Shown: piece by piece, positions 20,978 to 27,076 of the stretch
How positions within the stretch are numbered: position 1 is the first letter of the stretch
How the letters are laid out: every line of letters starts with the position of its first letter
Assembly (NCBI RefSeq): GCF_000735135.1
Contig: NZ_JPLZ01000002.1
Coordinates: 412,317-476,316 of the forward strand
Direction of reading: 5' to 3'
Length of the DNA stretch: 64,000 bases
Source: Chryseobacterium sp. FH1
Lineage (GTDB): Bacteria > Bacteroidota > Bacteroidia > Flavobacteriales > Weeksellaceae
Program-made: the position numbers and the translations under genes
Notes under the pieces: generated by a model
Seen by the model: the letters and a program-made list of their open reading frames with translations, nothing else
Database searches by the model: none
Told to the model about the DNA's origin: nothing

Positions 20978-21016
20978 ATAAAAACTGATTTTTGTCATAA
21001 ATCTAAATTATACTTG

Positions 21017-21045
21017 TTTGGTATGAATTGAATTATTTAAATTTG
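21017..21045 (+). promoter_or_regulatory. Promoter of the metNIQ leader
   Basis: TTTG, 17 nt, then TAAATTTG: both Bacteroidetes promoter elements at consensus spacing. Transcription would start near 21052, giving a ~150-nt leader before metN. Confidence 0.75.
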
Positions 21046-21069
21046 CAAAGACTTTTTAGAACACTATTG

Positions 21070-21126
21070 ATGTTGAAAATTTGTGTTGTTTGTTGCAGTG
21101 ATTTTTCGATGATAATAATGAAGTAG
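21070..21126 (+). CDS. Met/Cys-rich leader peptide of metNIQ
   Basis: An 18-residue frame, MLKICVVCCSDFSMIIMK, ending in TAG. Six residues are Met or Cys. The ATG begins 2 nt after ACACTATT and the stop ends 2 nt before AATAGTGT, its exact complement, so the frame sits inside one stem. An intrinsic terminator follows 20 nt later and metN after that. This is the plan of an amino-acid attenuation leader. No ribosome-binding site is visible, which is usual in this phylum. Confidence 0.6.
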   Translation: MLKICVVCCSDFSMIIMK

Positions 21127-21146
21127 AGAATAGTGTGTTTATTTTG

Positions 21147-21184
21147 AAAACCTTTCATAATCTCATTTGAAAGGTTTTTTATTT
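21147..21184 (+). terminator. Attenuator terminator in the metNIQ leader
   Basis: The stem AAAACCTTTC/GAAAGGTTTT is followed by TTTATTTT and ends only ~17 nt before the metN ATG. It lies within the leader, downstream of the promoter, so it should reduce metNIQ expression unless disrupted. The ATAATGAAG of the leader frame could partly pair with CTTTCATAAT of its left arm and loop. Confidence 0.8.
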
Positions 21185-21200
21185 TAATTAATTGATAGAA

Positions 21201-22229
21201 ATGATTGAACTTTTAAACCTTAGCAAAAGTTTTAAAACCAAAAATAAAACGATCCACGCATTGTCCGACGTTTCTTTGACGGTGGAAAAAGGCGAGATCT
21301 TTGGCGTGATCGGAACTTCCGGCGCCGGGAAAAGTACGCTTATCCGTTGCGTGAACCTGCTCGAAAGGCCGAACGACGGCAAAGTGATTGTCGACAAGAT
21401 TGAACTGACAGAATTGTCTGATGCTCAACTGACTTTGGAACGACGAAAGATTGCGATGATCTTTCAGCATTTCAACCTGTTGTCTTCCCGAACGGTTTTT
21501 GACAATATCGCATTTCCTTTGGAATTGGAAGGAAAATCAAAATCTGAAATTCAGGAGAAAGTCAATAGTTTGCTGGATCTTGTTGGACTCAACGATAAAG
21601 CGAAGGATTATCCTGCGAATCTCTCCGGCGGACAAAAGCAAAGAGTCGCGATTGCAAGAGCTTTGGCTAATGATCCGAAAGTTTTGCTTTGTGATGAAGC
21701 GACAAGTGCACTGGATCCAGCAACTACCAAATCGATCTTGAAATTGCTCAAATCCATCAATCAAAAATTGAACTTGACAATCCTTCTCATCACCCACGAA
21801 ATGGAAGTGATCAAAACGATTTGTGATAAAGTAGCGGTTATCGATCACGGAAAATTGGCTGAACAAGGCAATGTGGAACAGATTTTCACCAATCCGAAAG
21901 AGGAGATTACTAAAGGATTTATCCAATCTTCGCTTAATGTTGAATTGCCTTTGGTTTATCAAAATTCATTGAGCAAAATCGATGGTGAAAACAATAATCC
22001 GTTGGTGAAATTTTTCATTAATGGTAATGATGATCAGAGTTTTGTCATTAGTAATTTGTTTGAGAAATTCCAGGTGAAAGCGAAAGTCATCAGTGCGCAA
22101 TTGGAATATGTTGGGAATCTCAGTTTTGGGGTTTTGCTGGTGGAATTGCAGGGTGGAAAAGTAAACGAGGCTTTGGCTTATTTGGAAAATGAATATTCTA
22201 ACACAGAAATTTTAGGTTATGTCGGATAG
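21201..22229 (+). CDS. metN: Methionine ABC transporter ATPase
   Basis: The ATPase that powers D/L-methionine uptake with MetI and MetQ. Walker A GTSGAGKST is at ~38-46, the signature LSGGQKQRV, and Walker B VLLCDEATSALD. The C-terminal ~90 residues are the NIL domain (DQSFVISNLFEKFQVKAKVI), which binds methionine and inhibits transport in other bacteria. The ATG giving MIELLNLSKSF is chosen; an upstream TTG adds three residues. It overlaps metI by 11 bp and lies behind the attenuator leader. Confidence 0.96.
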   Translation: MIELLNLSKSFKTKNKTIHALSDVSLTVEKGEIFGVIGTSGAGKSTLIRCVNLLERPNDGKVIVDKIELTELSDAQLTLERRKIAMIFQHFNLLSSRTVFDNIAFPLELEGKSKSEIQEKVNSLLDLVGLNDKAKDYPANLSGGQKQRVAIARALANDPKVLLCDEATSALDPATTKSILKLLKSINQKLNLTILLITHEMEVIKTICDKVAVIDHGKLAEQGNVEQIFTNPKEEITKGFIQSSLNVELPLVYQNSLSKIDGENNNPLVKFFINGNDDQSFVISNLFEKFQVKAKVISAQLEYVGNLSFGVLLVELQGGKVNEALAYLENEYSNTEILGYVG

Positions 22230-22872
22230 TATGATCAATTTGTTATTTCAAGGGACCTTAGAAACGATCGTGATGACCTTGGTTTCTGGATTTTTCGGAT
22301 TTCTTTTGGGATTGCCGATGGGGATTTTCTTATTTCTGACAAGAAAAGGACAATTGCTGGAGAATAAGGTGTCTCATCAGATCGTCTCTGTCATAGTGAA
22401 TATTTTCCGTTCGATTCCATTCATTATTTTGATTGTCTGGATGATTCCATTAACGAGAACGATTGTTGGAACATCGATTGGCGTTGCAGCGGCTTTGGTT
22501 CCGTTGAGTGTTGGGTCAGCTCCATTTATCGCGAGGTTGGTGGAAAATAGTTTGCTGGAAATTCCTTCAGGATTGATAGAAGCAGCAAGATCGATGGGCG
22601 CTAAACCTTTGCAGATCATCAGAAAAGTGCTTTTGCCGGAAGCTTTGCCATCGCTTATCAATAATATCAGCATAACATTGATTACGCTTGTCGGTTATTC
22701 CGCAATGGGTGGTGCAGTTGGTGCTGGCGGATTGGGACAAGTTGGTTATCAATACGGTTATATCGGCTACGATTTTGCGGTGATGAATTCGGTTTTGGTC
22801 CTTTTGATAATTCTGGTTTTCATCATTCAGATTTTGGGAGATTTCCTTTCAAAAAAATTTAATCACAGATAA
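22219..22872 (+). CDS. metI: Methionine ABC transporter permease
   Basis: A 217-residue inner-membrane permease with about five helices. The coupling EAA-type loop reads GLIEAARSMGAKPLQIIRKV, followed by LPEALPSLINNISITLITLV. It is translationally coupled to metN by an 11-bp overlap. A second in-frame ATG at 22231 would avoid most of the overlap. Confidence 0.96.
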   Translation: MSDSMINLLFQGTLETIVMTLVSGFFGFLLGLPMGIFLFLTRKGQLLENKVSHQIVSVIVNIFRSIPFIILIVWMIPLTRTIVGTSIGVAAALVPLSVGSAPFIARLVENSLLEIPSGLIEAARSMGAKPLQIIRKVLLPEALPSLINNISITLITLVGYSAMGGAVGAGGLGQVGYQYGYIGYDFAVMNSVLVLLIILVFIIQILGDFLSKKFNHR

Positions 22873-22882
22873 AAATTAAAAA

Positions 22883-23683
22883 ATGAACTTAAAAAAAATA
22901 GCATTTGCCTTCGCGATTATTTCATTAATGGCTTGTGGCAAAAAAGAATCAAACCCAAATATTTTAAAAGTCGGAATCGCTTCCGGACCAGAACAAAGCT
23001 TGGCAGAAGCTGCAAAAAAAGTGGCCAAAGAAAAATATAATCTGGATGTGGAATTGGTAACCTTCAACGATTATGTTGTCCCGAATGAAGCTTTGAACCA
23101 AGGTGATGTGGATGCGAACGCTTTCCAACATTTGCCTTATCTGGAGGAGCAATCCAAACAACGAGGTTATAAATTGGCAGTTGTGGGAAAGACTTTTGTT
23201 TATCCAATCGTTGCTTATTCAAAAAAAATCAAATCAATTTCGGAATTAAAACCGGGACAAACCATCGTGATCCCGAATGATCCAACCAATGGCGGAAGAT
23301 CGCTTTTATTATTACAAAAACAAGGCTTGATCAAATTAAAAGACGGCATTGGATTGCTTCCGAAAGTGACGGACATTACAGAAAATCCCAAAAATTTCAG
23401 AATCTTGGAATTGGAAGCACCTCAAATCCCGAGAGTTCTTGAGGACAAGGAAGTGGTGTTGGCCATCATCAACAATAATTTTGCAGCGCAGGCAGGATTG
23501 GATCCAGAAAAAGAGGGCTTGTTTACAGAGGACAAGGATTCTCCTTATGCTAACTTAATTGTTTCTAGAGAAGACAATAAAAATGACGAAAAGATCAAGA
23601 AATTCGTCAAAGCTTATCAATCTCCGGAAGTAGAATCCGTGGCGAAGCAGACCTTCAAAGGAGGTGCTGTGAAAGCATGGTAA
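22883..23683 (+). CDS. metQ: Methionine-binding lipoprotein
   Basis: The substrate-binding lipoprotein of the methionine importer, NlpA family. The signal peptide ends in lipobox LMAC (Cys ~19). Family blocks are LKVGIASGPEQSLAE, NEALNQGDVDANAFQHLPYL, and VIPNDPTNGGRSLLLLQKQG. Length 266 is normal. It lies 10 bp after metI and ends the operon at a strong terminator. Confidence 0.96.
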   Translation: MNLKKIAFAFAIISLMACGKKESNPNILKVGIASGPEQSLAEAAKKVAKEKYNLDVELVTFNDYVVPNEALNQGDVDANAFQHLPYLEEQSKQRGYKLAVVGKTFVYPIVAYSKKIKSISELKPGQTIVIPNDPTNGGRSLLLLQKQGLIKLKDGIGLLPKVTDITENPKNFRILELEAPQIPRVLEDKEVVLAIINNNFAAQAGLDPEKEGLFTEDKDSPYANLIVSREDNKNDEKIKKFVKAYQSPEVESVAKQTFKGGAVKAW

Positions 23684-26927: not shown

Positions 26928-26989
26928 TAAGGTTGTAAAAATCAGTTGAAAGTTGGTGGGGAAAATTGAAAAAACAAACCAAACTAATT

Positions 26990-27076
26990 AGCCCCGATTG
27001 CAGCGGTTACCCCGGAACGAGCCTTGGGAAAAGCCCTGGCGTGAGGAGTAATAGCGGAAAGCGGGATAAAGCTCCT
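26990..27076 (+). repeat. Interspersed structured repeat, copy B
   Basis: Starts AGCCCCGATTGCAGCGG and ends ATAGCGGAAAGCGGGATAAA then GCTCCT. AGC-CCCG can pair with CGGG-ATAA-AGCT, the same closing stem with a bulged ATAA as in copy A, but with different bases. An inner hairpin GCC..GGG-AAAAG-CCC..GGC is also present. It ends 22 bp before the fumC ATG, so it is probably in the fumC leader. Confidence 0.75.

Follow-up and report, generated by a model that had tools for sequence, protein, structure and literature searches.

The leader that precedes the metNIQ operon in the window, by which we mean the whole stretch of 64,000 nucleotides analysed here, appears to be a ribosome-mediated transcription attenuator linking metNIQ expression to the supply of cysteine, and on sequence comparison we put the probability of this at roughly three in four. 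A Cys-codon frame, a covarying stem that encloses it, a terminator and the operon were found to be retained together across the genus of the window. Ribosome-mediated transcription attenuators are represented by the trp, his, leu, thr and ilv leaders of enterobacteria, with which this leader shares a short frame rich in particular residues, a terminator, a candidate competing RNA and a downstream gene of the same metabolism. Unlike those, it would take sulfur residues as its signal and control an importer and, in the window's genus, its frame is enclosed by a stem; it also departs from classical attenuators in that the untranslated leader is predicted to fold for read-through. Judged by mechanism, there is good support for placing it among attenuators in Chryseobacterium, and the case for the window's own genus is incomplete. 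We infer the names of both genera, Epilithonimonas for that of the window (g1) and Chryseobacterium for the large genus g6; at 82-97% identity, the named near relatives of the window MetN come from Epilithonimonas species and from records filed under Chryseobacterium or Flavobacteriaceae.

The metNIQ leader in the window

All parts of the locus lie on the plus strand. A promoter-like site of the Bacteroidota type, TTTG-N17-TAAATTTG, called from the Bacteroidota promoter consensus, spans positions 21017-21045, with TTTG at 21017-21020, 17 nt of spacing and TAAATTTG at 21038-21045, and a TAnnTTTG-like element is retained in the alignment. It is followed by AAAGACTTTTT (21047-21057), the 5' strand of a pairing termed P0 and, by predicted pairing and alignment, the first of two candidates for capturing the terminator left arm, and by the 5' arm of the stem P1, ACACTATT (21061-21068). 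The start codon lies 1 nt downstream of this arm and opens a leader frame of 18 codons (21070-21126), which reads MLKICVVCCSDFSMIIMK before its stop and contains three Cys and three Met, the start Met included. Two of the Cys codons stand in tandem at 21091-21096 (codons 8-9), and the 3' end of the frame carries ATGAAG (21118-21123), the second candidate antiterminator strand, at a position retained across the genus. The 3' arm of P1, AATAGTGT (21129-21136), begins 2 nt beyond the stop codon and is exactly complementary to the 5' arm, giving an 8-bp stem that encloses the frame. An intrinsic terminator at 21147-21178 then forms from the arms AAAACCTTTCA (21147-21157) and TGAAAGGTTTT (21168-21178), with an 11-bp stem, a 10-nt loop and a T-rich run after it. 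The operon starts with metN, encoding the methionine ABC transporter ATPase (21201-22229, ATG at 21201), whose top NCBIfam model was TIGR02314 at 475.8 bits, under the curated cut-off of 499.7; the permease gene metI (22219-22872, NF008049) and the substrate-binding lipoprotein gene metQ (22883-23683, NF008285) follow, both above their cut-offs. The promoter and the 18-codon frame with six sulfur residues were present as the preliminary description had given them. Its complementary arms were likewise exact, set 2 nt outside the stop as it had claimed and 1 nt, not 2, outside the start, and its terminator before metN was found with a stem of 11 rather than 10 bp.

The two strands of the window carry 581 ATG-initiated frames 10-40 codons long. 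Tandem Cys codons were present in 13 of them, and the metN leader was the only one to combine these with a terminator-like hairpin within 110 nt downstream (1/581). A simple terminator scan of the window with a loop limit of 8 did not list the metN-leader terminator, whose loop has 10 nt. Single-sequence folding of the leader was unremarkable (z = -1.10; 30/200 shuffles equally good); the weight of the observation comes from its conservation in the genus.

An operator-like partial palindrome, TATACTTGTTTGGTATGAA (21009-21027), overlaps the -33 element and is near-identical in all 18 loci of the genus by alignment. One other copy, with 1 mismatch from the metN copy, was located in the genome at contig C7:7444-7462 of G000, for which the reversed control pattern gave three matches at 3 or fewer mismatches; the gene downstream of this second copy is, we take it, cupin-like, and a regulator common to both loci is possible. 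The 5' motif TTTG-N4-GGCTTTTTT was not specific within the genome, with 45 sites at no more than 1 mismatch vs 27 for the reversed control. Besides the locus itself, no further full copy of the leader was found in its own genome. Four partial matches ranged from E 3e-6 to 8e-4, and the one inspected was the terminator of another gene.

Conservation of the leader in Epilithonimonas

MetN was present in 18 of the 23 genomes of the genus, and the 18 metN upstream regions could be aligned over the promoter, P1, the spacer and the terminator, as the preliminary description had proposed to check. The P1 stem and the terminator were retained in 18/18 loci, with the terminator directly 5' of metN in every one. 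Over the 7-bp core of P1, 125 of 126 cells were paired, the only broken pair being that of L016, and two pairs were changed on both sides, in one sequence each (L008 and L013). The covariation score of P1 was equalled by 9 of 500 shuffles, and pairing fell to 14-71% when the partner was slid by one to three columns; the slide of -3 gave a covariation score of 0.093 vs 0.075 for the real register, although it left fewer than half of the cells paired and showed no double-sided change.

An ATG frame with adjacent Cys codons was found in 15/18 loci and Cys at the same place in 17/18, L015 and L017 having a single Cys only. In the 15 tandem-Cys loci the pair begins 41-46 nt from the assumed RNA start. 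The frames fall into the classes MLKFVCCIRFI, MLKFCFVCCSNIFQ, MSGKMFCCYDLTFRIYMKK and that of the window itself, and the peptide around the Cys codons varies in length and sequence. As 11 of the 17 frames, among them MLKFVCCIRFI and MLKFCFVCCSNIFQ, have no Met after the start, cysteine is likely to be the signal in Epilithonimonas. Comparison bears out attenuation by a sulfur-residue leader, and not methionine as the sensed residue in this genus, where only Cys is conserved; the terminal Met codons, lacking in most frames of the genus, were dropped as a sensor. In one locus, L008, P1 and the terminator are present and the ATG leader frame has been lost.

The retention of P1 and the terminator in L008, and the better conservation of P1, spacer and terminator than of the peptide, would also suit a metabolite- or protein-sensing RNA of the riboswitch kind, built on P1 and the terminator, in which the frame is incidental. 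We consider this unlikely, since the stretch enclosed by P1 differs among loci in both length and sequence, folding is weak (the z of -1.10 above) and the other lineages described below repeat Cys/Met codons before a terminator and not the RNA sequence. Moreover, no Rfam family, SAM riboswitches included, reached the gathering score at the leader, and relaxed thresholds returned three sub-threshold matches only (E 0.58-2.5). The sole gathering-score match in the window was a Flavo-1 RNA (RF01705) at 26986-27072 on the plus strand.

A leader covariance model, a further check put forward in the preliminary description, had one strong match (E no higher than 6e-17) in each of the 18/23 genomes that have metN, and no strong match in the five genus genomes without metN. 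As the model was built from the same 18 sequences that it recovers, its informative part is the lack of a strong match in the other five; weak extra matches (E 0.0046-0.0087) were seen in four genomes, of which one (G009) is without metN. This distribution bears on whether the 5' transcript might be a small RNA gene with a terminator of its own, unrelated to metN expression. The promoter-like site and the terminator fit such a gene, and a short transcript is equally expected under attenuation, but the strong matches follow metN (18/23 genomes with it, 0/5 without), metN stands directly after the terminator in all 18 loci and the Chryseobacterium leader stays with the operon even with eamA in between, which makes an independent small RNA highly improbable.

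Candidate antiterminators and the predicted sign of control

Chryseobacterium has a longer leader, of the form MM(M)..CMP with a G-stop end. In some loci metN follows it directly; in others an eamA-like gene comes first, and metN about 1.2 kb further on. The leader was present in 47/48 of the loci examined, taken from records with Chryseobacterium or Weeksellaceae in the title and a MetN identity of 53-56%; 46 of these were scored by script and L199 by eye, and L201, with 149 nt of upstream DNA only, was set aside. A second set of 53 leaders overlaps the 48-locus set in genomes, and the two pooled amount to 99 leaders with 82 distinct 20-codon blocks. Numbered from the Cys at 0 (79 of 82), the conserved residues were Met -5 (77), Met -4 (81), Met +1 (81) and Pro +2 (80), besides an upstream Ile (72/82) and Lys (69/82), and the three positions between MM and CMP were variable. 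The uncorrected pN/pS of the leader was 0.51 over 20 codons and, for either of two parts taken alone, 0.59, values that are compatible with its translation.

The conservation of M-M-x-x-x-C-M-P, with its Pro and the upstream Ile and Lys, goes beyond what codon counting needs and might point to nascent-chain arrest, in which the peptide responds to Cys, Met or SAM within the ribosome tunnel in place of a lack of charged tRNA. The variable positions between MM and CMP, however, and the variable length and sequence of the Epilithonimonas peptide around its Cys codons make an arrest peptide very unlikely.

The pattern search for the Chryseobacterium leader returned 30 loci, of which 20 leaders were kept and 10 set aside, coding sequence having also matched, and 30 further pattern matches were selected by closeness to metN. 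Three exact pattern matches (L115-L117) were rejected as antisense chance matches inside a gene, presumably protease-like, and not leaders. At E 0.001, a model from the 43 distinct sequences of the second set had matches in 163 of the 316 genomes of the family, which belong to 2 of 33 genera. For the nine g6 genomes listed without a MetN match, the leader was found in three, and the other six were absent among the model matches listed. In L239 and L240 the leader is kept with metN split between frames, and in L242 it is kept with a metN remnant. One Chryseobacterium genome also carries, on the reverse strand (L244), a Met/Cys leader and terminator before a gene that we take to be amino-acid-permease-like. 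Another recurrent partial palindrome, AGTCTACT-N5/6-AGTGGACT, was seen upstream of the -7 element and the frame in the Chryseobacterium leaders L046, L050, L052 and L057-L114.

The Chryseobacterium antiterminator, GUGGU..CCUU/AAGG..ACCAC, lies across the final codons of the frame and its stop. It had 92.8% of its cells paired and two pairs changed on both sides, both of them in L062 and L085 (GGAGU with ACUCC), the similar L108 having been collapsed before alignment. None of 500 shuffles matched its percentage paired or its covariation score, and 9/500 matched the number of pairs changed on both sides; at a slide of -3 the score was 0.072 vs 0.039 for the real register, with 46.7% of cells paired and no double-sided change. 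The terminator was paired in 100% of cells (43 sequences). Pairing between the frame end and the terminator beat shuffled sequence in L058 (P 0.012) and L062 (P 0.008), with P 0.081 in L050, and it did so in other lineages as well (L054, P 0.010; L146, P 0.037). For the 53 leaders, the predicted probability of the antiterminator in the nascent RNA averaged 0.66 (0.00-0.98) with the ribosome at Cys and 0.67 with no ribosome, and was 0.00 in every case with the ribosome at the stop.

For Epilithonimonas we assumed the usual footprint, in which the ribosome ends 12 nt beyond the first nucleotide of the codon in the A site. With the final Cys codon of the pair in that site, the ribosome leaves ATGAAG free in 17/17 frames, by a gap of 1-19 nt. 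At the stop codon, it covers the beginning of the hexamer in 17/17 and touches the P1 3' arm in 13/17. From this geometry, therefore, cysteine shortage is predicted to favour read-through, and both antiterminator candidates in the genus agree with that sign; folding without any ribosome also predicts read-through. The preliminary description had left the sign of control unclear, and it is now less so, as the relevant stall is at the Cys pair of codons 8-9, where the geometry predicts read-through in all 17 frames. For L002, L007 and L015, which have two in-frame ATGs, the upstream one was used in nascent folding and the downstream one in the geometry count.

As to the capturing strand, ATGAAG can pair with CTTTCAT of the terminator left arm and is placed like the Chryseobacterium strand, the hexamer being altered in L004, L008 and L013. 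Such a pairing of the frame end had been suggested at the outset, but its energy was no better than that of shuffles in the six Epilithonimonas sequences tested (P 0.26-0.90 in 6/6). In the other candidate, P0, the 5' end of the RNA extends P1 and pairs with AAAACC of the terminator, through GGC in 17/18 loci with a U-run next to it. Among 17 species, its probability in the nascent RNA reached 0.5 or more in 12 with a ribosome stalled at Cys, in 10 with the ribosome at the stop and in none with it at the start codon. P0 of the window, with GAC in place of GGC, is weak, at a nascent probability of 0.10 with the ribosome at Cys. None of the 18 sequences was significant for P0 against dinucleotide shuffles (P 0.11-0.97), and 2/18 had P < 0.05 against single-base shuffles. 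A mutually exclusive antiterminator that is masked at the stop is thus supported in Chryseobacterium, whereas the Epilithonimonas candidates are not significant against dinucleotide shuffles; of the two, we slightly favour P1/P0 over ATGAAG. When the whole leader was folded, the terminator reached at least 0.97 in every state except two of L017 in Epilithonimonas, and a mean of 1.00 in every ribosome state in full-length Chryseobacterium RNA. As whole-leader folds give the terminator in both genera, only the nascent stage discriminates.

Under the attenuator reading, RNA polymerase would start just 3' of TAAATTTG and a ribosome would begin the leader. With ample Cys-tRNA the ribosome would reach the stop and cover the 3' end of the frame, so that the terminator forms and transcription stops before metN. 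With Cys-tRNA short, it would stall at the Cys pair (codons 6 to 9), leaving the downstream region free, and upstream RNA would capture the terminator left arm and let the polymerase read through. The capturing strand would be that over the last codons and stop in Chryseobacterium (GUGGU..CCUU with AAGG..ACCAC), and in Epilithonimonas either ATGAAG or the P1 stem extended by the RNA 5' end. In the latter case the start codon would lie under the Cys-stalled ribosome, re-initiation could be blocked and P1 could close. Methionine or some other sulfur amino acid would then enter through the importer.

Related leaders and known attenuation systems

Met/Cys frames followed by a terminator before metN or eamA were found in at least five further lineages. 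These include ...MIMCLCMAMPCPVVSGD in L054 (g10), MNNYYHCSMMCCNAVMVFIDLA in L216 (same order, other family) and ...MYMCCFFMQP... in L146 and L217, which have identical upstream sequence and include Rhinopithecimicrobium faecis, each with a terminator and then metN. In L024 (g11) the frame MVMNCNGMHSLV, with one Cys, and a terminator precede metN, and Met/Cys frames with terminators stand before metN in L220 (same class) and before an eamA-like gene in L243 (g22). L220 and L243 each carry two Met/Cys leaders in tandem, each leader with its own terminator. Apart from these, a terminator-like hairpin stands near metN in the g11 loci L023 (seen by eye only), L025 and L026, none of which has a Met/Cys frame, frame and terminator were found together in 0/8 of the g3 loci L027-L034, and the Pedobacter locus L156 has neither a Met/Cys frame nor a terminator. 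MetN occurred in 6 of the 395 genomes of a class-wide sample, three of which are accounted for by the window's own genome and two by Chryseobacterium.

As both Met and Cys are conserved in Chryseobacterium and the other lineages, the description 'Met/Cys' fits the wider family and not Epilithonimonas. It is possible, though doubtful as a whole, that a multi-lineage family of attenuators reading Cys and Met stands before metNIQ in Bacteroidota, sometimes in tandem, and that the Epilithonimonas member reads Cys only with its frame inside the antiterminator stem, so that a Cys-stalled ribosome would block re-initiation and the stem would close on the terminator left arm.

We compared these leaders with those described elsewhere, as far as the parts of the cited papers drawn on here extend. 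For uORFC-8-2, which precedes cysS in Rhodobacterales, read-through on Cys-tRNA shortage has been proposed (PMC8632094), and that leader, too, combines a short frame carrying tandem Cys codons with an intrinsic terminator behind it. It belongs to another phylum, precedes a tRNA synthetase gene (cysS) and has its Cys pair usually at codons 14-15 inside the stem, and the window leader is not uORFC-8-2, given the different gene and Cys codon position. The cys-operon leaders of Mycobacterium and others resemble the present ones in having runs of Cys codons before sulfur genes and differ, in what was drawn from that source, by the lack of a conserved terminator hairpin, Rho having been suggested (PMC1262725). 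Within the same phylum, attenuation has been inferred from leader-like frames in Flavobacterium psychrophilum (PMC9723704) and from leader-like small frames in Bacteroides thetaiotaomicron (PMC7366714), in both cases, going by the portions used here, as clues only and with no mention of the present leader; the main text of the former contains neither 'methionine' nor 'metN', and its sole 'cysteine' refers to a protease. We found no leader-peptide attenuator for methionine uptake described in the open-licence papers searched, and, looking there for Met or Cys leaders before metNIQ or in these genera, no title or abstract that fits the present system. The covarying antiterminator of Chryseobacterium offers a clear mutational target. 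If the leader of a methionine importer reads Cys, imported methionine, or another ligand of MetQ, may serve these bacteria to mend a cysteine deficit.
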